Shown piece after piece: positions 32,263-60,170 of a stretch of DNA of 64,000 nt; position 1 is the stretch's first letter, and every line of letters starts with the position of its first letter. Made by a program: the position numbers and the translations under genes. The notes under the pieces were generated by a model. The model worked only from the letters and a program-made list of their open reading frames with translations. It made no database searches and was not told the DNA's origin. The stretch comes from Symbiodinium natans (Eukaryota > Sar > Dinophyceae > Suessiales > Symbiodiniaceae). The stretch lies in assembly GCA_905221605.1 (NCBI GenBank), contig CAJNDS010001669.1, positions 552,001-616,000 of the forward strand, in the 5' to 3' direction.

Positions 32263-32400
32263 TAGGGCTAGGGTTTAGGGTTTAGGGTTTAGGGTTTAGG
32301 GTTTAGGGTTTAGGGTTTAGGGTTTAGGGTTTAGGGTTTGGGGTTTAGGGTTTAGGGTTTAGGGCTTAGGGTTTAGGGCTTGGGGTTTGGGGTTTAGGGT
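32263..32400 (+). repeat. Telomere-like tract (TTTAGGG, about 18 units)
   Basis: Mostly perfect heptamers. It is the last substantial tract before the AT-rich satellite. Confidence 0.9.
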
Positions 32401-38160: not shown

Positions 38161-39289
<1,129 letters not shown>

Positions 39290-39290
<1 letters not shown>

Positions 39291-39313
39291 TGCCCCAAAG
39301 ACAGAAAGAAATA

Positions 39314-39365
<52 letters not shown>

Positions 39366-40890: not shown

Positions 40891-42480
40891 TTTTACTTAT
40901 GTTGGATTGATGTATTTATAGCTTGGTTTTTCATGGCCACTTGCGGTCGTCAGGCTCTACGGCAACCAGGTCTGTTGGTCGAGTGCCGTTTCTTGGCCCC
41001 TTAGATGGACGTGCAGACGCGCTGCTGCATTTTTTTCCTTCTTGCTGGGTGCTTGAGTGGTGGCCCGACACGATACACACCTGCCGCTGAGGTATTCTGG
41101 GACTGCTTTGATGGACCACGCTCTTGATGCTTTCACCTTCTGTCGTATTTGCTGGAAGGACACGTGACGACATGAGCTGTGGACTGTTCGTTCCCATCTC
41201 CCATTAGGTCCTTGTGAGAATTTGTTGCTTATGAGCATAGCTGAGTTGCCACGGTCTACTCTCTAGTTTGTAAGAGTGAGAACGCTGGGTTGAGTTTCTG
41301 TGCGCGCTGGGGCCCCTGCATTGCACTGTGTATTGAACTTCGCTTCCTGTGCATTAACTTTGTAGTTTCTCAAGGCTGCAACCTCCGCCTGGTTGAGCAC
41401 GGCTAGCTGGCCAGGTCAGACCAGACAGCTGCGGACTTTGAGCATATGGTGCTAGTGTGCTAGCTCCTCACCAAACTACTCTTGGCTGGCGCTAGCCGCT
41501 AGAGGTGGTGGAAGGACATGAGAGTGGAGCTGATGACAACTAGTGTTCTCCAGGGTTCCTATCAGCTTCGGGCTGGCAAGAACTCTTGGATTTCTCAGAG
41601 CTTCTAGATTTCAGCTGTTTCTGCGCAGCCAGACTCTTGGGATCTTGGCAGGCAGGTCGGTGCTCCAGAGTTTTTCAGGTTGGTAAAATGATTGCCTGGC
41701 AGTGGTTAGCGTGCAGGCAATGCCCACTCTCGAAAACTGCGGTCAGCAGCTGGTCTTCGCAAGATTTCTGCGCAAATCATCTTTCCAAGTTGGCGCCTAC
41801 CATCCCTTATTGATTAATCTGCTCCTCCTGCGTCAGCAGGAGGCGACTGCCGCAAGCAGATGGACGTCTTGGTCATCTAGACGACCCAGGACTTCCTGGA
41901 ATCGCCGTGGCAGCTGCAGACAAGTCACAGTGTGACTAAACGTGTCAATGTCACGTAATGCCATCGAGCTTTGTGAAGCTCATCTGCTTGCTAACTCCAG
42001 TCGCCGTGATCTCTCGAGATTGTAGCGATTTGGGCTTGAGTTGACTACTACTTTTGTGCTGCGCTTGCTATCAGAAGCGTAGTGAGCTGCAGCATAAACA
42101 TATCTGGTGTGGACAGTATACCGTCCATCCCTCTATCTCTCAGCACCTCGGCCTTGTAGATTCCATGTGATCAGAAGTGTGCTTCTCGATCCTGCCCGCT
42201 GTAGAACGAGTGCGCTCGGGTGCCAAGGTCTTAGTGTCTTGATCCCAGCCATGCTGGTTGACGCTGGAACTATGGAAGATGCAGGCCTGCCGCTCATTAT
42301 ACACGCTTTAATGCACAGGGCGTAGTAGAATCGCACGCAGCGCCAGTAGGTGCACATTCGCAGACATTCAGCGATGTTAGACATTCGGCGCCCTCTGAAA
42401 GGAACAACGCCCGGAAAATAGTGACGTCAAGTGCGCCAAGCAGCCCAGGCGAAACAACGAGTTTCTCAGCTTCGCCGTCC
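40890..42480. other. Gene-less stretch upstream of the gene block
   Basis: Balanced-composition, non-repetitive DNA with no convincing frame and no telomere-like repeat. It may hold the left end or promoter of the element beginning near 42.4 kb; no terminal repeat could be identified by eye. Confidence 0.45.
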
Positions 42481-42485
42481 CCGTC

Positions 42486-43617
42486 ATGCCTTCCGTGTCC
42501 CGTACCTACACAGAGCAGTGGTTTGTCTCCTCTCCGATCTTTGTCCGGCTCAACAAAGTGGGCAACGCTGATTCCACTTTCGATCAGCAATCGGAGTCTG
42601 CTTCCAAGGAAGACATCGTCTCACAAGCCATTGACATTCACGCCGGGCCACGGTGGCCGACACCGCAAGGCGACCATTGTTTCCAATGAGAACATTGACT
42701 ATTCGAAAACCGGTCCATTCAAGCTGGGCAAGGGACCGAAAAAGCTTGGATATTACCCACGCAAAGAACATCTGCGACCTCACCATGGCAGACCGGTGTG
42801 CGCAAAGTCCAAGCCCTCAAGGTGTGTCGATGCGCTACAGGGGTCATCGGGCGGAAGAGTTGGGACTTTTCATCGGCAACGGAAGTCCGTGAAGTGCGAG
42901 AAAGGTGAAGGCCATACACCGACACTTTCGTCAACAAAGCCAGCCAAGCCAGAGATCCCCTTGACGTATGCTGTTGCACATCCGACCATCTTCAAGCAGG
43001 AAGAGATACCTCGTCATGCCTATCGCACATGGGGAGAGGTGCTGAGCCGTTACACCAAGGTCGCCCGCAGACATGGGCTCTTCAAGCATCGGGGATCATC
43101 GGAACATGGGCATCTACATTCCCCTGCACTCACGCCGACATTCACGCCGAAGTTTACTCGCGAAGTCGAGAAGGACATGTCCAAGTTGGCAACTGACGCA
43201 AACATTTGCGTATGTGTCAGCGATGAGATGGAGATTGCACGGCGTGAGATCACCGCCTTTGAACACCATGAATCGAAGCCCCTCCGCAGCTGCATCCACG
43301 GCTCCAAGAACGTCGCAGATCTCACGTCGAAAACTCCGCAGCCTCACAGCTGCTCGCAGGTGCAGTTGTCGGAAATCTACATGGCGATGACGGTGATGAT
43401 ATCTGGCATTCACGCCGGCATTGAAACCCCCATGCAGCAGGGGCTTTCAGTGGATTGCCCCAGCTTCGGTGCCTCTAGCCGTCATGAAGTTGCGCATGGT
43501 CAATTCTGCTTGTTGCAAGCGGCGATCGGCCATCGCAAGGGCCGCTTGGAGCAGCGTAGTGAACTTCTCCATACCCTTAATACTTTGCCAGGAGCACAAG
43601 GGCAGTACATAATATGA
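42486..43617 (+). CDS. Uncertain coding region, frame switches
   Basis: One frame is open from 42421 (GTG) to 43617, but parts of it look unlike protein. At 42486-42689 the frame starting MPSVSRTYTEQW reads better, and at about 42653-42890 a third frame (HAKNICDLTMADRC) does. From about 43140 the long frame again looks coding (SKLATDANICVCVSDEMEIA). This fits either a gene with small introns or a frameshifted remnant. No domain is recognised. It lies 13 bases before the next ORF on the same strand, so it may be an upstream exon of it. Confidence 0.4.
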
Positions 43618-43630
43618 ATATTCTGCCTTG

Positions 43631-44764
43631 ATGCAAGGTTCAGACTCGGACTACTTTGCGAGAAAGGGTGGCAAGTATGAAGAGACGTGCTTGGTCGACG
43701 CATTCCGCGCACACAGGGTAAAGGTACCGTATGAAAGATCCGGACCCTTCTACGCGTTAAAGGATGGACGACGGCTACTTGCTCCTTTCTCACGAAGCAT
43801 CGCGAGGTGCAGTCTGGCAGAGCTGCAAGTCCAAGGTCAGTTTGTGGTTGGATATAAAAAGCACTTTGTTGCCGTGAGGCAAACGAACGACGATGGGCTC
43901 GAGGTGAACTTCACAAATAAATCGCATCTGTGGCACCGATGTAGTCTCAGCTGCACCTTTCCGACGGCGTTTCATCGTCCGGAAAAATCAGCTGTGTACT
44001 ACCTCAACCCGGAACATATAGATGTTGTGTTCCGCGTCTCATGCGCAAACGATCTTGGGGCAGATCGCACAGGCATAAAGACCGCCGTGGGTGACTACAA
44101 AGGAGGCACCGTCTCGGCTGCGGGAGGCAGCAGCGGCGGTGCGGCTTCGTCTTTACTTGTTCAGCACATCGGCCAGTACATTGCTTTCCGTAGAACTATG
44201 CATGTTCTGCAGGTCACTAGGAGGAACCTGCAAGAATTTATCACAGAACCATCTCTATGGTTCCAAGTGCCGAATCCTCTGGACGGCAGCATCGATGGTC
44301 GTACATGGCAGTACTGGATAGACAGCGTTGAGTATGAAGCAAGAAAGGTTACAAGCAGCGTCGATGTCAGCATCATGCTTCCTGCAAGACGTACTGCGTC
44401 GAATGGAGAGCCACTGGCACAGTCCATCTCAGACGTAGACCGCGCAGCAAAGCGGCTCGACGCTTGGACCGAGATCATGCTCCGTATGATTGATTACGCA
44501 GAGGTGATCGACAAGAACCTGATCTTGTCCCCGATTGATCCCAGCATATCCAAGAGAACTTGGGAGCAACATTTATTCGACATTCGTCGCAGCGTGAGGA
44601 TTCTGAATGAGGCTGTTGCAACCTACGTGGAAACCGACGGACTAAACTTTCCATATAGTGCTGCGGATGATTACGTGGGTGGCGCGTCTCCAGAGCCAAC
44701 TTCAATCGTGGACCGCACGGGGAGTCTCTCGTTGTACAAATTCTCACTAACTTTGATTCAGTGA
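43631..44764 (+). CDS. 377-aa protein with cysteine-peptidase-like N-terminus
   Basis: Starts at ATG 43631. Residues 20-25 read CLVDAF and residues 75-83 read YKKHFVAVR. A Cys at a helix start followed some 60 residues later by a His in a beta-strand is the layout of papain-fold peptidases (Josephin- or ubiquitin-peptidase-like), but no third catalytic residue can be assigned by eye. A Gly/Ser linker (AAGGSSGGAASS, near 165) separates this from a mainly helical C-terminal part with several Trp. It sits between the uncertain frame upstream and the F-box-like ORF 64 bases downstream, all on the + strand. Its role in the element, for example protein processing or deubiquitination, is inference. 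Without the Cys/His reading I would call it unknown. Confidence 0.55.
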   Translation: MQGSDSDYFARKGGKYEETCLVDAFRAHRVKVPYERSGPFYALKDGRRLLAPFSRSIARCSLAELQVQGQFVVGYKKHFVAVRQTNDDGLEVNFTNKSHLWHRCSLSCTFPTAFHRPEKSAVYYLNPEHIDVVFRVSCANDLGADRTGIKTAVGDYKGGTVSAAGGSSGGAASSLLVQHIGQYIAFRRTMHVLQVTRRNLQEFITEPSLWFQVPNPLDGSIDGRTWQYWIDSVEYEARKVTSSVDVSIMLPARRTASNGEPLAQSISDVDRAAKRLDAWTEIMLRMIDYAEVIDKNLILSPIDPSISKRTWEQHLFDIRRSVRILNEAVATYVETDGLNFPYSAADDYVGGASPEPTSIVDRTGSLSLYKFSLTLIQ

Positions 44765-44828
44765 AGGCAGCAGATCATCTTTTGGTGTTGGAGTTCTTCC
44801 GAAATTCTTTAAGCAAAAGTACCCTGTA

Positions 44829-46307
44829 ATGGAACAGCGCCAACCTGTTCATCGGTTAGGTTATGTGGAGCCCTTGCCAGTCGAGACCTACGTGGAGCCC
44901 TTGCCAGTCGAGACCTACGTGGAGCCCTTGCCAGTCGAGATCTACCGCCTGATCAGGCGGTATCACAATGCCTTTAGTCAAGGTCCTGCAGCGTCTGCTG
45001 ATATGACCTGCAGATGCTTGCAATATTCTTGCTTGCAAGCGATCATAATCAGCTTCTGTATTGATACCAGGTACGATGATGAAGACGTGTTTTGGATTGT
45101 TCCTGCCCAACACCCGCTAGCATGTTGCGCTACATTCACATGCTCTCCAAGATTGCGACATCCTCAGCCACTGCGTTGTGCTTTGCTCACGCGCTTCAAT
45201 GACAGCCCAGAGGACGGCGAGCATGAGTTCGATTATCTGGGCGGCTCCAACCGTCGACCTCGCTTTGGACCAGCGGAGCCCCGTGAGTCACAGTCTGAAC
45301 GCGCAGCGTCTTCTAGCGTACGGCTTCCGGTAGAATTGTTGCAGCGCCTGCCAAAATACTTCTTCGAGTACGGCTTTCTACGTTCTTTGGCGATCACTTC
45401 CAGATCCATGCTTCTTGCGACTCGAAGTAGAGAACACTGGACCGATCTAGACGTGAGTCTAGATCAGCCGGGTCTTGAGTTTACTGGAAGACTACGATAC
45501 GCTATCGAGCTCCTGAGCCAGGCCAACAAAATCATCGTGAATCTACGTCAGCTGGCCATGCTCATCTCACCGTTGCCTGCGAGCGTTAGGCTGTGCTGGG
45601 ACATCGTTCCCATGCCACCGCAGCCTCGGCTCAGCAATCTATATTATGGTTTTCGCTCAATGCGACCCTTAATGGGCTGCGCCGATTTCGACGTGTTCTT
45701 GCCAGCCAACGTTCGAGGTATCTACGTAGGCGTCAGGGAATGGCATGGACAGAGGCAGTCTTGCTGCAGAGTTGATAACCTGTTCAGACAAACGATCACC
45801 TGGTCCATAGGTATAAACGACGATCCTGTAATGCCACACCCATCAGCAAGCAGGCACGCGCCAGTTCCTGACGCAGTCAACAGATTTTCCTTAAGATGGG
45901 ACCAGCGAACATTCTCCATTGCGCTGAACGGTGTAGGTGTATCCCGTGCCCGACTGCGAGATGGTCTCGCAGTTGCGTCGCCAGCGCTTTCTCAAGTGTT
46001 CTTCATGGCTTTCGGGCATGGAATGCAGGGACAGCCGCCTCCGGCCTGTAGGACAATACCGTCCTCAATTCAAGCGAATGCCAGTATTCGATGTGGACTT
46101 TGTCATCGAGAGCACTCATTGTTGCTGCCGCGGTGGAGTGTGTGCCCTATGTGCAGTACATGGATCTGTTCATCGCACATTGGACGGACGCCGTGGGCAA
46201 GTTGTCCACATTGTGTGATGCAGCTGCAGGACTACCTGGGGGGCTCATCTGCTTTCCAAGGCATCCGATGTAGCCTGTTCCAAAGTACACAGCTCATACT
46301 CTCATAG
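44829..46307 (+). CDS. 492-aa protein with F-box-like and RING-like regions
   Basis: Residues 12-39 contain three copies of YVEPLPVET, encoded by a 27-base tandem repeat. Residues about 166-206 (LPVELLQRLPKYFFEYGF...) resemble an F-box. Residues about 297-400, with YVGVREW, WSIGIN and FSIALNG, have the look of a SPRY/B30.2 sandwich; this is weaker. The C-terminus has paired metal ligands C422-C425, C439-C442, C447-H450 and C459-C462, a cross-brace RING-like pattern. Together these suggest a substrate-binding ubiquitin-ligase-type protein. The ATG at 44829 follows an in-frame gap of 64 bases after the previous stop; the next gene starts 25 bases after this stop. It may be separate, or joined to either neighbour by introns I cannot resolve. 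Confidence 0.6.
   Translation: MEQRQPVHRLGYVEPLPVETYVEPLPVETYVEPLPVEIYRLIRRYHNAFSQGPAASADMTCRCLQYSCLQAIIISFCIDTRYDDEDVFWIVPAQHPLACCATFTCSPRLRHPQPLRCALLTRFNDSPEDGEHEFDYLGGSNRRPRFGPAEPRESQSERAASSSVRLPVELLQRLPKYFFEYGFLRSLAITSRSMLLATRSREHWTDLDVSLDQPGLEFTGRLRYAIELLSQANKIIVNLRQLAMLISPLPASVRLCWDIVPMPPQPRLSNLYYGFRSMRPLMGCADFDVFLPANVRGIYVGVREWHGQRQSCCRVDNLFRQTITWSIGINDDPVMPHPSASRHAPVPDAVNRFSLRWDQRTFSIALNGVGVSRARLRDGLAVASPALSQVFFMAFGHGMQGQPPPACRTIPSSIQANASIRCGLCHREHSLLLPRWSVCPMCSTWICSSHIGRTPWASCPHCVMQLQDYLGGSSAFQGIRCSLFQSTQLILS
44862..44942 (+). repeat. 27-bp x 3 coding repeat
   Basis: The unit encodes YVEPLPVET; the three copies differ at two bases only, so the expansion is recent. It lies in the start of the 492-aa ORF. 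Confidence 0.9.
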
Positions 46308-46332
46308 TTTGAACACGATGTTGGAGAGTTAG

Positions 46333-49300
46333 ATGCTGAGCACACGTCTTCGTCCGAAAATTAATCTGCTATCAGGTTTCTGGCCACCCCCGCTCCCTGA
46401 CATGGTCGGCAGTGTCATCGGTTCCGAGACCCCACTGGAGCCTACGTTCAGAATGACTGCGGAGCCATCGCGAGACAATACCGACGTACTGCAGCCTTGC
46501 GACACCCTTGCTCAGATCAACAGTCATGAAATGGACCACAGGATTCGTTTTGAGCCCGAAGGACACAGGTATTTCTTCGACGGCAAAAAGATTAACACGA
46601 GCGCAGCGTGTCACGAATAGTTTTTCGTTTGGTTATGTGACTCATTGTCAGTGATTTTGTAGTCTGCGTAAGAGCGTGTGAGGTCACTTCTCTGATCCAT
46701 TGCTTTGCAGAGCCATTCGATGCCATGGAAGCGATTACAAAAATGAAACGGGGAAGCAAGTGGCCGAGACCGGAGTATCTTGTGTCCGATATTGGACGAG
46801 ATGTCATTGAGCTCATGCTGGTGGATCACGATGAAAACACTGTTCGACAGCTCAAACACATCATCATGCAGTCCAGCCTCGATGCACGCGAGCTCTGTGC
46901 AGAACTCATTCGGTTGCGCAGCATGCTAAGTAATTGGGAAGACATTGTGCAAGAAATCGTATTGTCCGACCAGGAGATCATAGATATGTGGAAGCAGAAA
47001 TCGTTGTTTGCAAGCACCGCGGGCACGTGGACCCATGCTATGCTGGAGCATATGATGAACGGCTTCCATGTATCTCCTGGTTGCATGAGTGATGAATTAG
47101 ACATGGCTATTGACTTTTTATCTTCAGTCAGAGAAGAGTATCCAGCTTCAGTGGTCTTCAGAACCGAGTGGACTATCTACGCAGTCAAGGAAGATCTGGC
47201 TGGCTCAATAGACTTGGTGCTGCAGGATCCTAACGACGACAACCTCATCCTGATCGACTGGAAGCGCAGTGAGAAGTTGCCGGAAAAGTATTCCGGCTAT
47301 GGGCGGTTCATGCAGGAGCCTTTGAGCAGCGTGCCTGATTGCCAAGGCGAGCACTATAGGCTTCAACTCAACTTGTACAAGTGGGTTCTGGAATCGTATT
47401 ACTCCAAGAAGGTGAAAGATATGAGAGTGGTGTGCGTGCACAAGAATCCTTCCAAGGAGGCGTTCGTCGACAAGGTTCCCGATATGTCGGAAGTCGTGAG
47501 CAATCTCATGCGGCAAAGACGCGAAAGCTTGCAGCCGGCAGAGCCCACCTTTTCGCAGATTCCAGACACTACTGATCTCGCGGAAGAAATTAAAATCGCA
47601 CAAGCGCTTGCGCCTACGGTTCCTTTTGAAGTTGCTCACAGTCAGCGAAGACTGTCTCAGGCGTGCAGCGATGTTAACCAGGATCTTGAACCTCCAGTCG
47701 ACAACTGTGATGAGAACCGAGATGACAAGTTTCCTGATTTCTTGAAGAAAAGACGTGCAATTAAGGGCGCGGACAAGAGTGCACTGCTCTTCGAGCAAAT
47801 GTTTGCTGCGAGCCACAAGTTGTTACAATGCACTCTCGATGTAACACCGGCAGACGTACGGGCCACCAGCGACTGCGTCCTGAAAATCACAAGTACGACT
47901 ATTGCAGATGTGACAGAAGCGCAGCCAACATGGTCAGCAGATCTGGTCCGCCTGGTCGTGGTTGCTGCCCATTTATGTCGTTGCCGCGTACAGGATCGAC
48001 CGATGTTGGCGGACTGCGCGGCCCTGCTGTGGATGATGGAAGGTGAAAGACACATTCGAGTCCACAACGGGTTCCTTTATGTCTACGACGATGACGGTAC
48101 CTTCGTCCCTTTCGGCGGAGTTCCTCCCGAAACAGTGCTGCGACGTGTTTACCTATTCTGCAGCCGTTTGGAAGGTCTGCTTCTGCTGCTTCCAACCCGT
48201 ACTCGAAGAGATCCTCAAGTTGTACTCGATGCCGTTGCTGCCAAACGGCAAGAGTTTGTTTCGGAGTCCGAGTTCCTGGAGCGATGCGCGTCAGCGGTTC
48301 TGCAGGGGCCTTCGAATTCTGATCAGTACGAACGCTTAGATTCCATACCAATGGGTGATGAAGGGAATGAAGGTGGCGCGCGTCAGCGAGGAGATTCGGA
48401 ACCCTGGACTATAGCCTTAGCTGCGAAGGTTTGGAAGCTTTCGTGCGCTATCAGAAATGAATTGATGTACACCAAGCTGATCTCACTTTTGGTAGAATGG
48501 TGCGAAACTCCCGACAAGCGAGAAAGGTGTGTCTGCTACGAGGACTTGTGTCTGCGTTACGACTCCGACTTGCTGGTGCCCGTTACTGTTGTTCCAAAGA
48601 GCTCTGCGAACAATTGCTATATCAAGATACCGCACGCCATCAAGGATCCTGTCTTAGAGGCCAATGTTTTACGCCTGCAGAAGTTTTACTCCCAGACATT
48701 CTGGTGCAACGCGCATGTCTTCAAATGCTGCCAGGCAGCTATTGCCCTAGCCAAGAGGGGCTTGAATGTGGATCGGTGCTTCATCGGCATCTCGCCAGGA
48801 GGTGTGGGGCAGAGTCTCTACTCGCAGCACATCGCCGCTATGTTCGGCAACAACCATGCCTTTTTCGACCCAAACGTGTGGCACAATGACGAAGAGCTCA
48901 GAAAGCAAGTAGAAAGCTTTGCGAGATGCTTTATTATCACAGGTCAGGAAGCACCAGAGTCAGCCCGCAAGCTTCATCTGGATTTATACAAGAAGACGAT
49001 GAGTGCGGACGGCATCATGGGGCGTAAACCATACGGTTACACCACAAGGATGTTCACCATAGTTGGATGGACGCTTGGCAAACACGGTGTTTTTTGTTAG
49101 TCAGTGCGGATGAAGAAACAGTTTATTTGGTAGTTTTCTTATGGCTGGACCACGAAGGAAGCGATTGGAACTCAACCGCATGCTCATGTTTGCCGGTGTA
49201 AGTGTTGGGAATTTTAACTCAATACTTCGCCGTGCCTTGGTTTGGAAACCAAAAGCGAGATTTCTTATGAAGGCCTATCTCGAGAAATATCCAGACCATG

Positions 49301-52300
49301 AATTGGCCGGTATATTCGAAGCTGATCCGTCACTCAACAACTTCTTGCCAGGGTCGCAGGCATCACTGGCCGGACATCGTGTCCAGCATGCCTTCGAACT
49401 CATGCATGACAAGGAAGCCTGTTACCGCCTCATCGAAGAGTACGTAAACGGAGGTGACGAGTACCTTACAGAAGATACCATGCGGGGGGCGTGCTTTCTG
49501 CCAGTGCGAAAGAAGGCTGATGATGTGGACGAGGGCATCGGGAACTTGATGGCAGGTGCCACTTCACAGGACGAGCACGATCAGTCTGATACGCAATGGA
49601 AGAATCTGAGTAGCACTATCTTTCGCAAAATGCTGGATGCACAGATGGAGACGCTTTCGTTCTATGAGTTCAAGCTTATGCTGTTGACCGGTGATTACCC
49701 CAATTTGCCGAAGAACAAGTTGTGGGAAGAGCTGCAGTCCAAAGGATTCATGACAAAGGCAAATCTCCGAGTTCGAGGAAGACGTGGCAAAGATATACAA
49801 GGTCACCTGATTCCTGTCTTGAAAACAGAGCATCAGCTGTCCGATGTGATATGCACATCTGTGTCCGAAAGCTTGATGTTTCGCGAACAACATGATTTGA
49901 GCTCCTTGAGAGAGTTTATGGAGAAGCATCCATCCAGGGCCCACAATGTCAGCATTCTCAAGACTTTCTTCCAGCAGGCAATGAAGCCGAAAGCAAACAA
50001 GGGCTGCCCCGACGCCGAGAAACTCGCGAGAAAGCAACTGATGGAAAAGAAACTCAAAAAACTGAACGAGTACGAGTCAGCGCTCAACTTCTTCAATAGC
50101 CTGCAGGCTACAAAAAGACGTCGGATTATCAGCAAACAAGAGTCATTTCCTACCATGGTCGATGATGGAACCAGTCTGTGCTCATTTGACGTATCGTATC
50201 ACTACCCCGAGCAGAACACGGTGCGGAGTCGCAGATACGCGCGGAAGGGAGGCGCGCAAGTGGCTCCAAGACGGGTCCAGCACATAACGCTGCCTCACAC
50301 GCAGGATCTAGATATCCACAACTGTTGTCTTAGCATCCTCAAGCAGTTGCTCGACAAGACAAATCCCACTCCAGCTCTACCAGAAGAGCTCCAGAAGGTG
50401 CTGAACACATGCGCGGACGAGCGAGACAGCTTTGTCCGTAATTACATGAAGATCTCCTTGCCCGAAGGAAAGAGCATCATCAACAGCATCTTGAGTGGTG
50501 GTCTGCCACCTGCAACTATGCAGAGGGAGCCTGCAATTCTGAAGTTACAGTCTCTGAGTATCTACTGCAGATGGCTTGCTTGCAACTTGCTGCCACAAGA
50601 CTTCGACAGGTTTTCGGAAGACACTGAAAGGAAACGACCTTTAGCGTCGACTCTACACGTTCTTTGGACAGCAGTGGAGGATTCAATTCTGGACGCTTGG
50701 CTGAGCGCTATCTGCCCTATGTCGCCGAAGCATGTGTCGCTTCATTTTGATGGTGTCCGGATTGACAGAGAACTCGTCAACAACACTCCGGATCTTGTTG
50801 CGATGTGTCAGAGGGCTATTCTCGAGAAAACTGGCTTCGATGTTTCAATTGCCAAGAAGGAGACGAAGACGATCATGCAGCTGATCGAGAGTGTAGCAGA
50901 AACCAAGGTGGCCTTGCGAGCTGTGCCAGCACATCTGTTAGAAGATGGTAATTGCATTCCTTGTGCGCTGTGGCATCTCAATTCTAAACTTCGGGAAAAC
51001 ATCACCAAGATATTTGGTGACCCCAGCGCTCCAGACAACCAGCAGGCGCTAAAGAGCCGTTGTCGTTCGTACAGGTCTTGCATGGCAGCGCTGAAGCAGG
51101 ACTTCACAGGCTGCGTTGGTCTTCCTGACGCTGAGATCGCAAGCTTCCTGTTGCACTTCGAGAACGATGGCAAGCCGCACTCGGTGACTGTCCAATACAA
51201 TGCTTCCAAGGAGTATGTCTCTGTTCTGAACGGCTCTATGCACTACCGACTCCAGACCAGCCAGTTCATGTCGGCGTTTTTCAACGGTATTGATACTTCC
51301 ACAGCTGTTTGTTTTTGGCAAACGCATCACCCAAGCAGTAAGCAAGGCTGCGAAAATGGCCTGTTGGATCTCGAAGCTGGCATGGAGGGGTCGGTGAGCG
51401 AGAGCGATGTTTCCGACGATGTTCAGAAAGAGCAGTGCACGCAACAGTCTTTTATCCTGGATGAGAACGAAGAGTTAGCGTTTCCAGACGTCATATTAAA
51501 GAGCTTGAAAGAGGAGGTCAGCCAATACACGGACAGACTATGTAGCAAGACAGACGTTCGCAGACAGAACGGCAGGTACAGCTGTGAGCTGTGTCCGTTT
51601 CGAAGCTTCAAGGAGCTCAGAGGGCTCAAGGTGCATGTGCAGAAGCACCACCACCAGAAGAACCAGTTCGTTTGCTCGGGCACAAAGCAAATCAAGGCGA
51701 TAGCAGCTCTTCATGACCATCATGCTGGGCTTCAAGAACGCTGCAAGCAGTATCTGCAAACAACCGCGAGGCTCATGTCGTCCACTATTGTACCAGCGCT
51801 CCCAAGGACAAAGAATTACATAGACAAGGATATCAGGCTGCTTTACACCTCTTCTGGACCGATGTATGTGAGCCATCGAAGTCTGAAAGAGGGCACGTTC
51901 GCTAGAAGAGTTCGCAACGTGTACTATGACAAGTCATTTGCAGAAGCGTTTCTTCAGGAAATCCTGATGCAACTCATCCAGGCCAGTGTTGCTCACGGGG
52001 TGAACGTGTTAGGTCTGTGTTGGTGTGCTGAAAGATGTCATCATGTCGTTGCATCTTCCTTTTTTAGTTAGGTGCGAACAACTTGGCCTCGACTTCACCT
52101 GCGAGCACAAGACGCGGGCAACGTGTTGTCCTCACTGTATCCCACACACACCCGCTTCTGGTGGCCAATTCTGGAAGACGTCGCGTATTCCCCTGCCATA
52201 CAGGACAGATTGCGCTGCATGTTAGAAGTGCTCGAGCAGTCTGAAGAATGGAGCTACATCAGCACGGATGCGACACTGAAGACATGCCTGAAGCTGAAGG

Positions 52301-53481
52301 GACAGGAGTCCTATCGCGCATCGAAAAGAGTTCGGAATGATGCACCCTTTCCTGACAGCGTTGCGTGGAGACGCCTTCTCACGGTGCGCGGTCGCACAGG
52401 AGCAGTGCTGCTACTCGAGCCAATTCGGACGGAAAAGTCTGAGGATTTGATAGAAGCGTTTGAAAACAATTTTTCGGACGTTGCTCTGGATCAAGTGCGG
52501 TATATGGCTACAGACCAACCTTCGCCCAAGCTGTACCAGTGGCTGAACACAAAGTGCCCGAACCTGGTTTGCTTATGCCTCGATCCAATTCATTTAGCTA
52601 TTGTCTATGAGTATGCCCAGTGGAACAAGAAGACAGTTGGCTCGAAGATGCTGCGAGCCCTACTGTCAAAGGTTCTGGCTGTTGATGACCAGAAGACTAG
52701 CAGTGACTGGGGCCCTTTTTTCAATGGCTCGAATCCCACGCCACTGAACAAGGCAGAAGAAATTATGAGAGAGAAGATTCTGCAGTGTTCAATGTCCGAA
52801 AGGCAGGCAAAGAAAATCATGGCTGAGTTAGACACTTCCACACCCTTTCGCGATCGGCTGGCCTTCATCAGCGGACTCGCAGCCATATGCTCTCTGAGAC
52901 AGGAGGAAGTTTCCCGAAAGGTCACAGGCGCGAACAAGGAGGTCTACATGGTCTTATGGGCAGCATGTGCGCCGGACCGGTTGGAATGGCTTTGGAACAA
53001 TGTCAGATTGCGGCATACTCTGACAAAGGCGCAGCAGCTTTTTCTTCCGAGCGGTACCTCATCCAATGAAGCGTTGCACGCCGAGATTAATTCTTGGTTG
53101 CGCACATGCAACTCGCTTCACAGGTCGACTCTTCGTCTCAAGCTACGATTGATGCAGTACCGCAAACTGTTGACGCATCACATAGCCACATGCTATCCGT
53201 TTGCTAGAATGACGGCAGAAGGTGTCGTTTTATCTCGAGCGCTGGCTAAGCCAACGTGGTCGGTGGAGACCTGGAATGCTTGGTGCGAGGAGCAACGTCG
53301 CGATGGAGGCCAAAGCAAGGCTGATCTGCCCCTTATGCGCTCTCGTGATATTGAGATCGCTATGGTAAAGGGTTGGGTGCAAAAGAAACCCGCGTCAAAG
53401 CGGCGTCGAATTAAGCGAACTCCATTTTCTGCCAAGCGCCAGCACCAACTAAAGGTTGGTGGGGTAAAGGGGCATAAGTGA
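46333..53481 (+). CDS. Giant replication/transposition protein of a mobile element (about 2302 aa, 4 exons)
   Basis: Exons 46333-46602, 46683-49069, 49158-51999 and 52072-53481 join in frame. (1) Residues about 60-340: RecB-like PD-(D/E)XK nuclease, with HRYFFDGKKI and VTSLIH at its start, then H208, E252, D267, D282-x-K284 (LIDWK) and Q318 (QLNLY). (2) About 790-886: SF3/D5-like helicase, with SPGGVGQS where GKS is expected, then FFDPN, FIITGQE and DGIMGRKPYG. (3) About 1265-1425: polymerase-palm-like motifs DLDIHN, GKSIINSILSGG and LHFDG. (4) About 1475-1590: OTU-like peptidase, DGNC then HY. (5) C2H2 finger near 1695 (C-x2-C-x13-H-x3-H). (6) About 1893-2180: DDE-type transposase/integrase-like, STDATLK, ATDQP, LDPIHLA and NEALHAEIN giving D, D, D/H and E. 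Parts 1, 2 and 6 resemble predicted proteins I know from Symbiodinium genomes, unnamed. Parts 3 and 4 are weaker. If the introns are wrong, the exons are three separate ORFs starting at 46725, 49141 and 52072. Confidence 0.75.
46603..46682 (+). other. GC-AG intron, 80 nt
   Basis: Exon 1 ends ...AACACGAGC; the intron starts GCAGCGTG and ends CGTGTGAG; exon 2 starts GTCACTTCTCTG. The join gives INTSVTSLIHCF, the usual start of a RecB-like nuclease domain. The unspliced frame hits TAG at 46618. Confidence 0.75.
49070..49157 (+). other. GA-AG intron, 88 nt
   Basis: Exon 2 ends ...GTTGGATG, the intron starts GACGCTTGG and ends CCACGAAG, and exon 3 starts GAAGCGATTGG. The join reads TIVGWKRLELNRML and restores the frame (88 leaves remainder 1). 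Intron and exon 3 both start GA. Confidence 0.65.
52000..52071 (+). other. GT-AG intron, 72 nt
   Basis: Starts GTGAACGTG after GCTCACGGG and ends CTTTTTTAGTTAG before GTGCGAAC. It removes the only stop (52069-52071) between two halves that share a frame, and has a pyrimidine-rich 3' end. Confidence 0.7.
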
Positions 53482-54540
53482 CACCGCAAAGCGACTGTTG
53501 CTGTGCGCGACATGTCGCAATCGTGAGGTTGCGACGGGTGTGAAACGACGGATAGCAAAACGCGCGTGTTGTTGCCCTTGTTGGATGACCTGCTCCTTTG
53601 CACTAAGAGACGCGTGCCTGATAAGTTCATTGTGACAAGATCTTGCTGGCTGGCGCAGGACTGTGATCACTTCGATGACGTTTTCCCTTCACCTATGCCA
53701 TGATTTGAGTTTGGCACGCTTGGTTGAGTGTGTTTTGACACGTGTGCTGTGTCAATTCTTCACGCACGCCAGTCTCACATCGACTGAACCTTGATCCAAA
53801 CTAGCCTCATTTAATCTTCTACATGGTTTACCTTGCCCTGATGCCCGGCATCCTTTAAAGTTATCAGGTATATTGAAGGCTACGCCGAAGTCTGGAGTTA
53901 CATAAAGTTGCGCGCAGGCAACGCATGATCCGTGACTGGAAGGAATTCTCCGAGATACGGTGTGTCTGTCATGTTGGGTGTACCAGATGTTCTCACCGGT
54001 CACGGGTTCGTGCTCGCGACTAGCGACTCGGCTCTTTGTCGGCTAGACATCGAAGGTGTTGTCGGCCTCGCTCGAAGTGCTACTACACTAATGAAGTTTG
54101 ATCTATGGTACGCGCGTGAAGCCCATTGTGCTCGCCTTGGCAATCTGGCACGCTGCTCAAAGGCTCCTGCATGAACCGCCCATAGCCTACAAGCGAGCTG
54201 CAGCTCCATGTCTTATCAAGCAGACACGTGCACCTGGCGACACGTGAAATGCCTCACAAGACCACCCTGCTGGACGTTCGAAACTTTCAAGTGTCCACCC
54301 GAGTCGGAAATTCTAACCCTTTCAAGTGGACTGACCTCCGAGCTAAGCCGTAGATGCCCAGGCAGATTAGTATCATGGGGTACGGTTTCTCAGGTATCAA
54401 CATCGTATGCATCAGCGGCACCGGCACGGTCCACAAGACCCTAGCGAATGACGCCGCCTTGTGTCCCCTCATGATTGTTCCGGAGGAAAGCGAACTTTGC
54501 TAAGCTGACAGCTAGTGTAGAGTGTAGACAGGAAACACCT
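53482..54540. other. Gene-less stretch downstream of the element
   Basis: No frame with a recognisable protein and no telomere-like repeat. It may contain the 3' end of the element; I could not find a terminal repeat matching sequence upstream of 42.4 kb. Confidence 0.45.
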
Positions 54541-54544
54541 GAAT

Positions 54545-55080
54545 ACGACTGCTGGTGGATGCGGACGCCAACAAACTTGCGCACATTGAGGACATGGGCA
54601 AAGCCGCCCTCGTGGACGCATCTTCCAAGGGCCATGTCGAGATTGTACGTTTTCTGCTGGATGCTGGTGCCGACAAGAACTTGTGGGACGACTACAACGC
54701 GAATGCTCTCATGGCCACATTTTCTCAGGGCCACGTGGAGATTGTGCGTTTGCTGGTGGACGCTGGTGCCGACAAGAACTTGCTGGACGAGTTCCGCGCG
54801 ACCGCTCTCATGCGCGCATCTTCCGAGGGCCACGTCGAGATTGTACGTTTGCTGTTGGATGCTGGTGCTGGCAAGATCTTGGAGGACGAGTACCACGTGA
54901 CCGCTCTCATCGCGCATGTTCCGAGGGCCATGTCGAGATTGTACATATGCTGCTGGACGCTGGTGCCGACCAGTCCTGACAGGAAAATGCAGGAAAGATC
55001 CGGCCTGACCGCTCTCGTGGACGCATCTTCCAAGAGCCATGTCGAGACTGTACGTGTTCTGCTGGGTTCTTTCACTAGGC
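54545..55080 (+). pseudogene. Ankyrin-repeat gene fragment, frameshifted
   Basis: Four to five ankyrin repeats are visible (ASSKGHVEIVRFLLDAGADK, then similar units every 33 codons). Near 54912 the frame shifts by one base: the repeat continues in another frame as ACSEGHVEIVHMLLDAGADQ and meets a stop. The original frame resumes near 54990 with LTALVDASSKSHVETVRVLL. The upstream end lacks a start codon. The regular codon spacing also creates a long minus-strand open frame, which is a shadow. It is most likely a decaying copy; an unrecognised intron at the shift is the alternative. Confidence 0.7.
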
Positions 55081-56230
55081 CTCTCTCAGAAGTAGGAGCA
55101 GGCGAATCTCCTAATGTGAGTAGTTCAGTTGGCACTGTGTCGGCATCGTCGATACGCAACAAGGTGAGAGGCGAGTTAGTGGTGGTGGTGGTAGTAGTAG
55201 CATCACGAGCAATCATATGCAGTTGTTGTAGTCGAAGCAGGAGGAGGTGGTAATAGAAATCGTCATATTCATTCAATAACGCATTAATAGCAGGTATATC
55301 TATTGTCAAACATAGTCAACACAAGGACGGTGCGCGAAATAGACCCTAAAGGTCTCGGCCACATATATATATATATACACATACGTGTGGCTTCTCTATA
55401 TTATGGTCCCTTTCCGGGTTCCTATTATAAGGTGGCCCGTAAGGTTTAGGGCATGCAAAAAGGGACCATAATTTATTGGAGAACTCACCATCTATATGCA
55501 TGTATTTACACAGATTTAGACAAAGATATACACACATCTGTTTGCTTCTTCGTTGCTATAGTGCAGCGAATCTTGCCCATTCAGGGGAAACTGGGCCCAA
55601 CTCTACACCCCTGCAGTAAGCCTCTCTAAACTCTAAACCCTAAACCCTAAACCCTACTCCTATCTTTAAGGCATCTTCGCCAAACCACTGCTTCCACTTG
55701 TCGCTGGCCACGAAATATGTCCAGCCCGGTTGCTTGTAAGGAATGCGGCTTAAACCATCAAGAAGGGTTCTAAAGCTTGAATTTAGGGTTTGGGGTTTAA
55801 GGTTCCTTAGCCAGTTTTGTTTCCTTAAACGGGTACAAAAGAGCCCTTTACCCCTCGCAGAAGGGGTAAATATTCCTTAAACCATACTACGGATCCCTAT
55901 ATATGGGTCAAGGAATATTGTTGAACTAAGGGTTTTGGGCTCTCTGGGAACTGGCCTCTGGAAACTCTCACTGATCCGGCCACGCTGCCCCTGGCCCAGC
56001 AAAGCTTGGCCCGTAGAGCCATAGGCCCAAGCCCAGCAGCACCTAGGGTTTAGGGTTTAGGGTTTAGGGTAAGCCCAGCACCACCTAAACGGGCACAAGA
56101 TGGAAAGCGGTTTAATTCGGGTTCCCCGTTGTACTAACAGTCCTTTGTAGGGATTCTAATAGTCCTTCGTAGGGATTCTAATTAGGGGGAGTACTCTAAT
56201 CCTTGTTAAGGACTGGCAGTATAAGGGGGA
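55080..56230. other. Gene-less stretch where telomere-like repeats return
   Basis: GTG/GTA-rich run at 55175-55200, a TA microsatellite with an inverted repeat (55365-55470), and the first TTTAGGG/CCCTAAA scraps since 38.4 kb (55444, 55627-55655, 56043-56071). A family B element ends at 55949 with GGGCTCTCTGGGA, and a family C element lies at 56117-56233. Confidence 0.6.
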
Positions 56231-56233
56231 TAA
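56117..56233. mobile_element. MITE family C copy
   Basis: GTTCCCCGTTGTACTAACAG at the left; TATAAGGGGG at the right. The word AGTCCTTxGTAGGGATTCTA is duplicated inside, and the complementary CCTTGTTAAGGACTGGCAG is near the right end. Confidence 0.55.
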
Positions 56234-56299
56234 ACCCTAAACCCTAAACCCTAAACCCTAAACCCTAAACCCTAAACCCTAAACCCTAAACCCTAAACC
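56232..56299 (-). repeat. Telomere-like tract (CCCTAAA, about 9 units)
   Basis: Perfect heptamers directly abutting the family C element. Confidence 0.95.
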
Positions 56300-56554
56300 A
56301 GCAGCTTTGCGAACATGAGCAGGCTCCCCAAGATTGGCATTGTCACATATGGCTTCGACCCGGTTGGTGTGCTTGACATGTCTGCCGCCTGTGGCCAGAT
56401 CAGTTGCAAGAAGTATGAGCGTTACTGATGAAAGGTACATATCAGCTGGGGGGGTTAGGCCGATGACTCTACTTAAAGCCTTGTTCAACAAAGTCCAATC
56501 AGTGGAGACCAGACCAGAGCATGCAACAACTTTTCCGTATAGCGATTGCGCCCG

Positions 56555-56953
56555 CATGCGCGCGGGGACGCGCGTGGGCGCTCGCAGGCGCGCGCGCGGG
56601 CGCGGGCGCTGCGCGTGCGAGCGTGCGCGTGCGAGCGTGCGCGTGCGAGCGTGCGCGTGCGAGCGTGCGCGTGCGAGCGTGCGCGTGTGCGTCGCGCGTG
56701 CGTGTTGAGCGTGCGCGTCGTGCGTCGCGCGTGCGCCTCGCGCGTGCGCGTCACGCGTGCGCGTGCACGCTTTGGCATTTGTCTTTGCGCTTTCGATTGG
56801 CCTTGTGTTTGTGTTCGTGTTCGTGGGTGCGTTTGTTTCTGCTTGTTTGTGTCGTGCGTGCATGCATGCATGCATGCATGCATGCATGCATGCATGCATG
56901 CATGCATGCATGCATGCATGCATGTGCGTGCGCTTGCGTGCATGCATGCATGC
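56555..56953. repeat. GCGTGCGAGCGT minisatellite and (GCAT)n microsatellite
   Basis: 56590-56760 repeats GCGTGCGAGC-type 10-12-mers. 56858-56925 is a pure GCAT/ATGC tetranucleotide run, with a second short run at 56938-56953. The His/Met/Ala-Cys-rich and Arg-rich open frames on both strands arise from these repeats. Confidence 0.9.
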
Positions 56954-57425
56954 GCATGCTTGTGCACGTATGAATGTCCCCATCCATGTACGCGCGCAGT
57001 TCCGCACAGCTCCCTCCTCCAAGATTGCGAAGCCATGTTCTACAACTCGGGCGCAATGACGGTTGTGGGCATCCCCTCTTGCAACCGGCTTGCAAACGTC
57101 ACGCCAGGACAGCAGCTGTCCGCGCACACCGTGCTCATGACATGGCATGCAGCTCATCGGATGTCCCCTATACGCCCTAAACCCTAAATCTTCAACCCTA
57201 AACCCACCAAGGCGCATCTTTGGCATGCCGGGTCAACATGCTGTGAGGGCTTTATGTTGTTTAGGACCTTAGGATGTATACTGTCTCCTCCGACCACGAG
57301 TAGGCTTTAAAGGTAGTTCGTTGTGTTAGAGAATCGACTTGAGCCGAGGTTTGGGCATCAATGCCGAGGGAGAGCGATGTGGCATTCATCAGGGTCAGGC
57401 CACTTGAGGGCTCAATTTTCAGTGC

Positions 57426-57535
57426 GGGAGGTTCATGGGAACTCTATGAAGGGCTAGAAGTGTGGCAACTGTACTTTTAACCAAATTTAGGTACTTCTAA
57501 CCCCACTTACAACTGTCCATGAAACTCTAAGTAGG
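57426..57535. mobile_element. MITE family A copy, about 110 bp
   Basis: Arms GGGAGGTTCATGGGAACTCT and CTGTCCATGAAACTCTAAG are imperfect inverted repeats without telomere-like insert. Confidence 0.6.
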
Positions 57536-58060
57536 GTTCGGAGTTTATGGGCATTCGGGGTGAAGCATTCATTCAGGCGGCTTGGCTTCTGTGATGACAT
57601 CAGCATGCACATGCCTTCTCCATGGTCCATAGCGACTCATGGAGTAGCCTAGACTGTGAGGACGCCTGCCAGCCCAGCCAGCCAGATCAGATCTAGCCGA
57701 AACCTGACGCGTTTCACGAACCCGGAAGTCAAATAAACCTGAGTGAAGGATAAAGACCTGAACTTAGAGTGAGGCCCCTATGTAGTTTTTGTATCATCGC
57801 CATACCGCCAGAACCTCCCGGACAAAGAAACGACTTGCCCACACTGCTGCTCCAGCAACCCACAAGCCGCCTGATCCCCTTCGACCGAATTACACCCCTT
57901 TAACACACAAAACCCTAAACCCTCATCCTAAATCCTAGACCTAAACCCTAAAGCCGAAAGCCTAAACCCCAAATCCTAAACCCTCTAAACCCCAAAGCCC
58001 CAAAATCCCAAAGCCAGATAAAACCCTAAACCCAAAGCAAAGCAAACCCAAGCCAAGCGG

Positions 58061-58290
58061 TTCCCGGAGACTCCGAAAAACCTTAACTAAGGAATGTTCC
58101 TTCAATCATATTAAGGATCCCTATGTGGTTTAAGGGTTTAGGGTTTAGTATTCAGGGCTCAGGGTGTATGTTTCTTAATTAGTGAGTATTCCTTACATCA
58201 CTAGGGTTTAGGGCTTGGGGTTTAGGAGGATTTTCCCCTCAACCCTCAACCCTCAACCCTCAACCCTAAACCCTAGTGGAGTCTCTGGGT
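58061..58290. mobile_element. MITE family B copy with two telomere-like inserts
   Basis: Ends TTCCCGGAGACTCCG and GGAGTCTCTGGG are inverted. Inside, TTTAGGG-type scraps (58133-58150) and a TTTAGGG/TTGAGGG-complement block (58202-58275) interrupt the family words GGAATGTTCCTT and AAGGATCCCTATGTGG. Confidence 0.65.
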
Positions 58291-58375
58291 TGCTGTGACC
58301 CTTTTCTTGCGCGCGAGGCCCCGCCGGCGTCACGCGAGTTGACCTTGGGGCCGGTCTTGAGATGGACTCTAGGGA

Positions 58376-58453
58376 GGGTTTAGGGTTTAGGGGTTTAGGG
58401 GTTTAGAGGTTTAGGGGTTTAGGGGTTTAGGGGTTTAGGAGTTTAGGGGTTTA
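58376..58453 (+). repeat. Octamer telomere-like tract (TTTAGGGG)
   Basis: About eight TTTAGGGG octamers after a single TTTAGGG; variants TTTAGAGG and TTTAGGAG occur once each. Confidence 0.9.
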
Positions 58454-60170
58454 TTTAGGGTCTAAGGTTTAGGTTTACGGTGGGATCCTTCGCTTGGTTA
58501 CTAGGGCTCAAGGCTCAAGAGCAGTTACAAACAGCTTGCTGAGGCTACGAACTGCCAGTTTCGGTCCTCCTTACGAAGTGTATGCATAGAACCTGCGGAC
58601 ACACTGCCGCGACAAAGCTGGAATCGTTTCTGCCGGTATCTCAACAGCTGACTCAAGAAAGCTATACTGCCCTCAGAACGTTGAACAAATAGTATGTTCA
58701 ATAGTCCCTGGGGGATTTATATGAAAAAAGTTGCAACAACAAATCCTAAGGGGACTATAGAAAAAATGGGAATCTTGCTCCTGTTCCAGCATGCCCGAAC
58801 CCAAGCCACCCCAGTCGCCGCTCCTCTGATCGCAGGACCTTTGCTGTGGCGCAGGGAGCCCCTAAACCGTGACGGTTTAGGGTTTAGGGTTTAGGGTTTA
58901 GGATTTAGGGTTTAGGGTTTTAGGGTTTAACCCTACCAACCTCCCCAACAATATACAAAGCCCAAGAGGCTCCTCCAGCCTGCACCTGCAGAAAAACCGG
59001 CAGCATCCCCTAAAAATCGGCAGACCCTGTCTTGGCTGACTTCTGAACCCCTCCTAAAATTGGTTTGGGGTTTAGGGTTTAGGGGTTAGCTAAAAGTTTA
59101 ACTTTTAGGCTCCTTCTTGTAGTTGCCTTCAAAATCCGAAAAGGTTAAAGGTTAAAGTCCTAAGAGCCTGCCAGAAGAAAGCCAAGCTGTTGCTAGATGC
59201 CCCCACACCATCCTAGTCCTAGACTCCTAGAAGCCTATAAGCCCTAACCCCCAAAACCTACACCCCTAAACATGCGTTTGTTGACGCGTGGACTGAGGTC
59301 GGCGCCGCAAACATCCCAGAACCCCCTAGACCCCAAACATCCTCGAACCCCAAACCCTAAACCCCTGAAAATCCCCAAAGGCCCTTGCAAGGCAAGTGTC
59401 CCTGGTCCTGGCGGCGCAGCGCGGCCCTGACCCATGGTGGGGCCCGCAGCGACGCCGCGGCGGAGGAGAAGGCACCTGCCAAGGCTTCCAGGCTTTTGGG
59501 GTTTAGGGTTTAGGGTTTAGGGTTTGGGGTTTAGGATTTGGGGTTTGGGGTTTAGGGTTTAGGGTTTAGGGTTTCGGGGGAGTGTCTGCATTTCAATGCG
59601 ACAATCAGCTCTTTCGATAGTCTCACTCGTCGAGCGTTTCAGGCTGAGGTCTCACAGTGTTCGGGCCAACGTCTGAAAGCATCCACCCATACCCCTCAGA
59701 TGGGATAGACAGGGCTTTCGGTTTTAGAGTTTAGAGTTTAGGGACCCTTCCTCTGAGCCTGAATGAAGTTGGAAGGCTGGAAGAAGGCCCCCCGAATTCC
59801 CAGGGATGAACACGTGCGACAGTCGTGAATTGCTTGGAGGACCATGGGTAGCTATATGCCGGGGTTACAGTCGTCGTTACTTCCCTCTCTCTCGCTCTCT
59901 CTGGCTCTCTGGCTCGCCCGCTCTCTCTCTCTCTCTCGCTCTCTGTCTGCGTCTTCGGAAGCCACAGCTCCACGACGAAGGGCTAAACCCTAAAACCTAA
60001 ACCCTAAACCCTAAACCCTAAAACCCTAAACCCTAAGCCCATGACCGGCCTAGGCCGAGGGACCACACAGGCCACACAGGGCCTCAGAGGACCCTGAGTC
60101 ACGAGGCCGCACCGGCGGCACAGAGCGGCTGACGGTGCGCACAAGCGGTTTAGGGTTTAGGGTTTAGGGT

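Follow-up and report, generated by a model that had tools for sequence, protein, structure and literature searches.

Helitrons are defined by a Rep/HUH nuclease together with a Pif1-type helicase. In Polintons/Mavericks and Tlr1-type elements a protein-primed PolB or a derivative of it is found, to which Polintons add a retroviral-type integrase and a capsid. A further arrangement is that of the TV-Pol family, and of the PolA-S3H proteins of virophages and polinton-like viruses, in which a minimal family-A-like palm adjoins an SF3-like helicase domain. TV-Pols are described by Iyer, Abhiman and Aravind (2008; PMC2579912) as never fused to nucleases. For an OTU domain situated beside a transposon polymerase, PMC11071308 gives the prediction that it cleaves its own chain.

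Here we describe a locus of Symbiodinium natans that was found in a window of 64,000 nucleotides (the whole stretch of DNA that was analysed, to which all coordinates refer). A sequence-only reading had placed in it a single gene fusing nuclease, SF3-like helicase, palm-like polymerase, OTU-like peptidase, C2H2 finger and DDE-type domains. Among the literature matches listed, no title or abstract opening describes this element; supplements were outside the scope of that search.

Results

The main chain is an uninterrupted spliced frame

The exons 46333-46602, 46683-49069, 49158-51999 and 52072-53481 join to a frame of 6909 nt, which encodes 2302 aa and has one terminal stop. The exon sum is exact, and the single frame read earlier through three introns was thereby upheld.

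46603-46682, forward strand: intron 1, 80 nt; the relative P0005 reads SVTGLIH gaplessly across the junction
49070-49157, forward strand: intron 2, 88 nt, with a GA donor (an 85-nt GC-AG alternative is possible); P0005 and P0006 read GW[KT]RLE
52000-52071, forward strand: intron 3, 72 nt, GT-AG; position apparently conserved

Because the main chain contains open frames of 819, 985 and 469 codons and has long homologues, a chance origin of the frame is far outweighed. At junctions 1 and 2 the same flanking residues are present without a gap in P0005, P0006 and similar relatives, in a comparison at the level of the protein sequences. Of 70 predicted proteins with a C-terminus that could be mapped onto the window protein, 24 end at residues 1829-1853, and many predictions consisting of the DDE domain only start at about residues 1813-1845. 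The position of the intron at junction 3 appears to be conserved.

The ATG at 46333, taken earlier as the start, is probably not the start. It lies probably inside a 115-nt intron, and homology extends upstream to 43.66 kb. This start was set aside and an upstream splice in frame was preferred.

46261-46375, forward strand: proposed GC-AG intron (AAG/GC...CAG/GT), 115 nt, holding the ATG at 46333
44757-46260, forward strand: segment up2, probably the exon preceding the main chain; tblastn matches of P0057 (E 7e-90 over 45291-46262) and P0001 (E 1e-84 over 45348-46037)
43658-44728, forward strand: segment up1; tblastn of relatives, P0102 E 3e-27
42514-42777, forward strand: segment up0, a possible far N-terminal coding segment; weak match to one relative only (P0087, E 7e-9)

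Splicing out 46261-46375, one of 11 frame-keeping intron choices in the scanned stretch, joins the ORF 44757-46260 in frame to give 8370 nt and 2789 aa, and the joined frame leads into the W.P.PLPDMVG block common to P0001. In the predicted proteins P0001, P0004 and P0057 the upstream module precedes the nuclease. The gene is thus longer than first reported, with its start probably elsewhere than at 46333. Segment up2, which we take to have an F-box-like start, an SPRY-like middle and a C-terminal Cys/His finger, gave no match in the Pfam scan of the window ORFs. In a 10-row alignment of up1 a CL pair is present in all rows and HFV or HFM in eight; by our reading this segment may be peptidase-like, with a conserved Cys in ...CLV.ALR and a His in ...HFV. 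The Pfam scan gave no peptidase match for up1. No unique splice joining up1 or up0 to the chain was found.

Domains of the chain

The regions recognised in the main chain are the following.

46510-47522, forward strand: PD-(D/E)XK nuclease, residues 60-370, with intron 1 inside
48510-49500, forward strand: SF3/P4-like ATPase domain, residues 700-1000, with intron 2 inside
48786-48815, forward strand: Walker-A-like loop GISPGGVGQS, in which Gln replaces Lys (Q800 in 94 of 100 rows)
50143-50940, forward strand: TV-Pol-like (family-A-like) palm, residues 1215-1480
50938-51330, forward strand: OTU-like cysteine peptidase domain, residues 1480-1610, at motif level
51583-51651, forward strand: C2H2 zinc finger, residues 1695-1717; PF13894 E 0.0043, below cut-off
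52072-53481, forward strand: DDE transposase, with a modelled RNase H fold and all-helical insertion

The nuclease and the transposase were the calls that stood most fully. Profile matches confirmed a Cas4/RecB-like PD-(D/E)XK nuclease: phrog_298, an exonuclease, was matched with E 1e-19 in P0001 and at E <=0.1 in 11 of 22 relatives, and cas4 matched P0063 with E 2.1e-4, below the model cut-off. The motifs D...DxK and QxxxY are kept (D267 in 65/66, D282 and K284 each in 67/67, Q318 in 65/66 and Y322 in 65/67 rows; in all such counts rows with less than 60% domain coverage were removed and the query row was included). For the DDE domain a confident structure model confirmed the predicted RNase H fold and an IS256/hAT-like transposase. 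Its catalytic residues are conserved in the pattern D, D, [D]xxH, E. The best solved matches in a second, not exhaustive look at the Foldseek matches with VIA were ISCth4 and Hermes, which we take to be IS256-type and hAT, respectively.

The palm-like polymerase found support in profile alignments, with a Polaromonas plasmid protein (probability 96.8, P 2.5e-10), with MAP_030 of phage Ma-LMM01 (probability 71.9, P 3.4e-5) and with a Calothrix plasmid fragment (probability 24). Controls for the MAP_030 comparison were 39 ORFs from the first 50 kb of Ma-LMM01 and 100 shuffles, the highest of which reached a probability of 3.7. The palm residues D1269, D1271 and K1324 are kept in 91/91 rows and D1417 in 90/91. 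R1244 (90/91 rows) stands, on sequence alone, at the place expected for the TV-Pol hairpin arginine before the palm. The RxxxK motif of TV-Pols is not present as such: K1324 is invariant, but the window reads LPEGK, without an Arg four residues earlier, and MAP_030 and the Polaromonas protein likewise lack this Arg. As the pair is missing, the domain is termed TV-Pol-like and is not placed in the TV-Pol family. The excerpted TV-Pol paper names phage Ma-LMM01 but no gene; from its position beside transposase genes and its motifs we infer that MAP_030, listed in PHROGs as of unknown function, is the TV-Pol of this phage. Pfam gave no polymerase in the relatives, MAP_030 or the Polaromonas protein, and the scan of the last two gave only a weak Clp_N match. 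The label 'family A' therefore depends on the TV-Pol paper and the MAP_030 identification. In profile comparison the polymerase appears closer to family A than to PolB, and this separates it from Polintons, as the first reading had it. No relative was obtained among IMG/VR contigs with the polymerase profile, for which one short pattern was used, nor in a scan of genome contigs with the Polaromonas protein.

The helicase was retained in part. TIGR01613 (primase_Cterm) matched P0084 with E 4e-4 and P0077 with E 1.8e-3, both far under the 108.7-bit cut-off, and matches of this type at E <=0.1 occurred in 3 of 22 members. The Walker A consensus GxxGxGK[ST] is replaced in most of the family by GGxGQS, and the presumed Walker B site reads QE, not DE (Q845 in 99/99 rows, E846 in 98/99). 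As most of the family lacks the Walker A lysine, ATP use by the helicase may be abnormal. A comparison with the profile of phage P4 alpha (probability 0.7, shuffles up to 2.2, only the loop GPGGSGKS aligned) was not significant and is not counted as support. When the helicase region was searched against phage sequences by tblastn, the hits had E values of 2 to 6 only.

The OTU-like peptidase stays at motif level. Its candidate catalytic residues Cys1485 and His1552 are conserved in 69/79 and 76/79 rows (the 10 rows without the Cys have Ser or Gly there), and no Pfam match to OTU was found in the window ORFs or the scanned relatives. In the C2H2 finger each of the ligands C1695, C1698, H1712 and H1717 is present in 65/66 rows, against a weak profile score. 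Neither the window ORFs nor the relatives scanned with Pfam, 22 at first and then others, yielded a family of helicases, polymerases, OTU peptidases or transposases, and when a 22-row alignment was searched against PDB sequences the hits were confined to zinc fingers, none better than E 0.23. Of the six-domain fusion, the nuclease and the DDE domain are firm and the polymerase profile-supported; the helicase is weak, the finger is weak by score but has conserved ligands, and the OTU-like region is a motif-level call.

Relatives share parts of the architecture

Parts of the chain are present in 110 relatives, mostly in the same domain order, and 11 of these have all six domains. The helicase occurs in all 110, the polymerase in 95, the OTU-like region in 79, the nuclease in 70, the C2H2 finger in 68 and the DDE domain in just 35, the last partly because some predictions end at intron 3. 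Four independent predictions (P0001, P0006, P0052 and P0063) link the nuclease to the DDE domain. Accessory modules (ankyrin repeats, RCC1, F-box) vary among the relatives. All 32 organism-named relatives are dinoflagellates, 13 of them from Symbiodinium sp. CCMP2592, which bears out the suspected recurrence of the chain across this lineage.

Gly-Gly sites in the relatives

The motif D-x-x-G-G-[S/A] occurs at 124 sites in the 110 relatives, versus a mean of 6.8 expected (highest 14 in 200 shuffles). It is borne by 48 of the 110 proteins, or 37 of the 80 in a non-redundant set from which 30 had been dropped, and is absent from 62 of the 110. With the Asp moved by one residue towards or away from the glycines, 2 and 13 sites were counted versus 6.7 and 6.8 expected; composition as the sole cause is rejected by the shuffles and this Asp-shift control. 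GG[S/A] alone is also above expectation (247 versus 109). Of the 124 sites, 107 lie outside the modules that the window also has and a further 15 at most 30 aa from an edge, with 29% of residues outside; 'outside' means no match to a window module, and ankyrin and other unshared domains are counted there. Later-found proteins have 11 sites versus 1.7 (highest 6), and a DDE set has 6 versus 0.8 (highest 3), two of the 6 (P0122, P0215) being within the DDE domain and not in a linker. The sites look like putative Gly-Gly cleavage sites in linkers. The 2302-aa chain of the window contains no such site; upstream of it are the following.

44093-44110, forward strand: DYKGGT, a junction-like variant with T after GG
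44669-44686, forward strand: site DYVGGA
45231-45248, forward strand: site DYLGGS
46230-46247, forward strand: site DYLGGS

Surroundings

Between 36000-43700 and 53482-60000 no inverted repeats were found, and the 12 best flank matches were all telomere-like repeats. An inverted fragment of the nuclease exon lies beyond the gene.

54117-54187, reverse strand: 71-bp fragment, 96% match to 47295-47365

ORFs of at least 200 aa in 32.4-54.4 kb are only pieces of this gene (with 42262-43617 in doubt) and a single antisense ORF of 205 aa that overlaps it, in a survey that would miss a spliced capsid gene.

Discussion

The window gene can be read as one copy of a dinoflagellate giant polyprotein family and as the central gene of a DNA transposon that replicates itself, a reading to which we give about an even chance. 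The product is likely to be a polyprotein carrying sites that resemble cleavage sites, not a single finished enzyme. A cysteine peptidase of the chain, either the OTU-like domain or up1, would cut after Gly-Gly, releasing the accessory modules and in many relatives also the nuclease. The helicase-like domain, polymerase, finger and transposase would remain together as one machine that copies the element, the polymerase perhaps priming itself in the way suggested for TV-Pols; insertion of the copy would fall to the DDE domain. More tentatively, and with somewhat poorer prospects, the family may represent a new capsid-less, dinoflagellate-wide transposon superfamily with the entire machinery for replication and integration in one polyprotein, processing by its own OTU-like peptidase between G-G and S/A of the ubiquitin-like motif, and a TV-Pol-like primase-polymerase coupled to an IS256/hAT-type DDE transposase. 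The replicative kit proposed at the outset is present in so far as nuclease, helicase-like domain, polymerase and transposase recur in one chain; inverted repeats were not found with it.

A domesticated multi-copy host gene family, in which a transposon-derived catalytic core serves a host role in repair or genome maintenance, appears rather unlikely. Catalytic residues conserved across deep divergence, the varying ankyrin, RCC1 and F-box modules as in host gene families, and the failure to find termini would suit it, but a nuclease combined with a polymerase and a transposase makes up an element's kit, one strain has 13 divergent clusters, and the degraded 71-bp fragment lies close by. It is unlikely that the chain is catalytically mixed, that is, a cut-and-paste transposon in which nuclease and transposase work and the helicase, perhaps also the OTU-like domain, are dead scaffolds of a relic replication module. 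The Gln of the Walker A loop, the QE of the presumed Walker B site and the OTU-like domains without Cys point that way; D1269, D1271, K1324 and D1417, kept in at least 90/91 rows, would be unexpected in a relic. Still more doubtful is a DNA virus, endogenous or satellite and similar to polintons or virophages, of which only the replication gene is intact here, the capsid genes being lost or elsewhere. TV-Pols and D5/SF3-type helicases do co-occur in viruses such as Sputnik (PMC2579912), and polinton-like viruses are found in the dinoflagellate Oxyrrhis (PMC12721341). Against this stand the ORF survey, within its limits for spliced genes, and the IMG/VR search with its one short pattern. In addition, none of the listed relatives is named as a virus, though most are unnamed, and the searches that contributed to this check and also yielded Skav206393 and Skav206392 were limited to scoring the 8000 candidates with most words in common. 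That separate neighbouring genes have been joined only by inference is scarcely credible: one annotation does divide the chain into the neighbours Skav206393 and Skav206392, and protein ends cluster at intron 3, but four predictions join nuclease to DDE, the residues on either side of junctions 1 and 2 recur in relatives, and the frame sum is exact.

If the self-replicating transposon reading is true, dinoflagellates hold a large and diverse class of replicative elements with a machinery unlike that of Polintons and Helitrons, joining a minimal family-A-like polymerase to a transposase of the cut-and-paste type. Replicative transposition by a DDE enzyme would become testable in one protein, a transposon polyprotein processed at Gly-Gly in the manner of ubiquitin would be at hand, and the large size of dinoflagellate genomes would be touched upon.

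Each of the known systems shares part of this design. Helentrons have a large single ORF with an OTU-like peptidase and an extra nuclease (PMC6431247), whereas family scans gave no Rep/HUH nuclease or Pif1-type helicase match here. The transposases of IS256, Mutator-like and hAT elements resemble the modelled DDE domain in their RNase H fold with all-helical insertion and the D, D, [D]xxH, E pattern, but here the domain belongs to a giant replication polyprotein, and no inverted repeats were found. With Polintons/Mavericks and Tlr1-type elements the locus has in common the logic of a self-synthesizing transposon and an OTU domain, here an OTU-like region, beside the polymerase, which in PMC11071308 is predicted to cleave the chain; their PolB, integrase and capsid were not recognised. 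The TV-Pol family and the PolA-S3H proteins share the minimal family-A-like palm adjoining an SF3-like helicase domain, an Arg at the place expected for the hairpin and the palm Asps, and the window polymerase matches by profile a plasmid protein related to the probable TV-Pol of Ma-LMM01. They differ in that the helicase follows the polymerase there and precedes it here, in the RxxxK pair, which is absent as such from the window protein, and in the fusion, found here, to a nuclease, an OTU-like domain, a C2H2 finger and a DDE transposase.

Extent and exons of the gene

The sequence-only reading had joined four exons, spliced within the window, in one frame, and this was borne out: they give 6909 nt with a single terminal stop, and an ORF scan of the window returned open frames of 819, 985 and 469 codons. 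Its start at 46333, however, is probably not the true one.

43658-44728, + strand, accessory module up1
44757-46307, + strand, upstream ORF (module up2, 44757-46260)
46261-46375, + strand, candidate intron
46333-46602, + strand, exon 1 as first described
46683-49069, + strand, exon 2
49158-51999, + strand, exon 3
52072-53481, + strand, exon 4

The module of the upstream ORF precedes the nuclease in the relatives P0001, P0004 and P0057. The candidate intron, one among 11 frame-keeping choices, has consensus-like borders (AAG/GC...CAG/GT) and joins this ORF in frame, giving 8370 nt and 2789 aa; if it is accepted, the ATG at 46333 would therefore be intronic. Homology to relatives extends upstream to 43658 and, in a single protein, as far as 42514; a unique splice for joins beyond the upstream ORF to either position was looked for in the window and not found. 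As judged from sequence, the gene is longer than 46333-53481.

At the first and second junctions the flanking residues are the same, with no gap, in relatives compared as proteins, P0005 and P0006 among them. At the third junction an intron appears to be conserved: residues 1829-1853 contain 24 of the 70 C-terminal ends that were projected, and many DDE-only predictions start at about 1813-1845.

A dinoflagellate family

A search with residues 780-1480 defined a set of 110 relatives. Organism names were attached to 32, all dinoflagellate (Symbiodinium, Effrenium, Polarella, Prorocentrum); the strain Symbiodinium sp. CCMP2592 accounts for 13. The DDE search (122 matches; 10 named among 120 listed) and the helicase-polymerase search (77 matches; 5 named) likewise named dinoflagellates exclusively. 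The helicase region is present in all 110, the polymerase in 95, OTU in 79, nuclease in 70, C2H2 in 68 and DDE in 35; all six occur together in 11. The accessory modules (up1, up2, ankyrin, RCC1) differ in position among relatives, and in the Prorocentrum protein P0089 the nuclease follows the polymerase. RCC1 repeats are annotated on the Polarella relatives P0060, P0064, P0068 and P0070, where they could reflect fusion or gene-model error. A second near-identical record (P0288, 99.9% over 782 aa; P0184, 99.3% over 268 aa) lies on one 872,090-base contig, of the same genome as the window's or another.

A Gly-Gly motif between modules

The linkers of the window carry D-x-x-G-G-[S/A] at three positions and a variant at a fourth.

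44093, junction site, T variant
44669, linker site
45231, linker site
46230, linker site

The window's own 2302-aa chain has 0 sites. The 110 proteins hold 124, in 48 carriers, against a shuffle mean of 6.8 (maximum 14, 200 shuffles). With the Asp shifted by one residue 2 and 13 sites were counted (6.7 and 6.8 in shuffles), with K in its place 1 (5.2), and for GG[S/A] by itself 247 (109). Relative to the modules that the window shares, 107 of the sites fall outside, 15 are no more than 30 aa from an edge and 2 sit further in. They are common ahead of the nuclease (21 of the 38 proteins in which that stretch exceeds 150 aa) and from nuclease to helicase (31 of 67), and are rare further on (helicase-polymerase 2/95, polymerase-C2H2 3/68, after C2H2 1/30). 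The excess recurred in later-found proteins, which are non-independent relatives (11 versus 1.7; 6 versus 0.8, 2 of these 6 within the DDE domain).

Ubiquitin-type peptidases cleave this type of bond, in which a small residue comes after Gly-Gly. For an OTU adjoining a polymerase in Polintons, self-chain cleavage is proposed in PMC11071308. From these two points we infer a polyprotein that would shed its N-terminal modules, and often the nuclease too, so that helicase, polymerase, OTU, finger and transposase would remain as a single machine. TV-Pols are predicted in PMC2579912 to act as primase and polymerase both; the element would presumably be copied and then inserted by its DDE domain.

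Surroundings of the gene

Arrays of TTTAGGG, the plant-type telomere heptamer (at least 3 units, either strand), number 95: 79 in 1-32.6 kb, 16 in 55000-60040 and 0 between, with a shorter telomere-like stretch near 38.4 kb. The array-free block of about 23 kb, between the last array at 32252-32400 and the next at 55633, encloses the gene and could be an inserted element.

At 32615-33480, TTAATTTCT and its complement recur in A+T-rich, satellite-like tandem arrays, at least in the rows listed; G+C amounts to 0.33 across 32-34 kb and 0.26 across 34-36 kb. A unit is repeated 3-4 times in tandem at 39344-40910 (spacing about 310-490 bp, identity 61-98% by piece). Directly 3' of the gene, ORF 54543-55253 reads by eye like ankyrin repeats, which are also annotated on several family relatives. 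A 71-bp piece of the nuclease exon, inverted and 96% identical, at 54117-54187 suggests a degraded second copy.

Comparison with known systems

None of the hallmarks of Polintons was recognised in this gene. The ATPase is not classed here as a canonical SF3 helicase, since its Walker-A lysine is replaced by Gln, as in most relatives. The polymerase is TV-Pol-like, yet the RxxxK pair of TV-Pols was not found in it and membership was set aside. Its fusion to a nuclease is unusual, since Iyer et al. state in PMC2579912 that TV-Pols are never fused to nucleases. In its proposed working mode the element resembles the self-synthesizing transposons.
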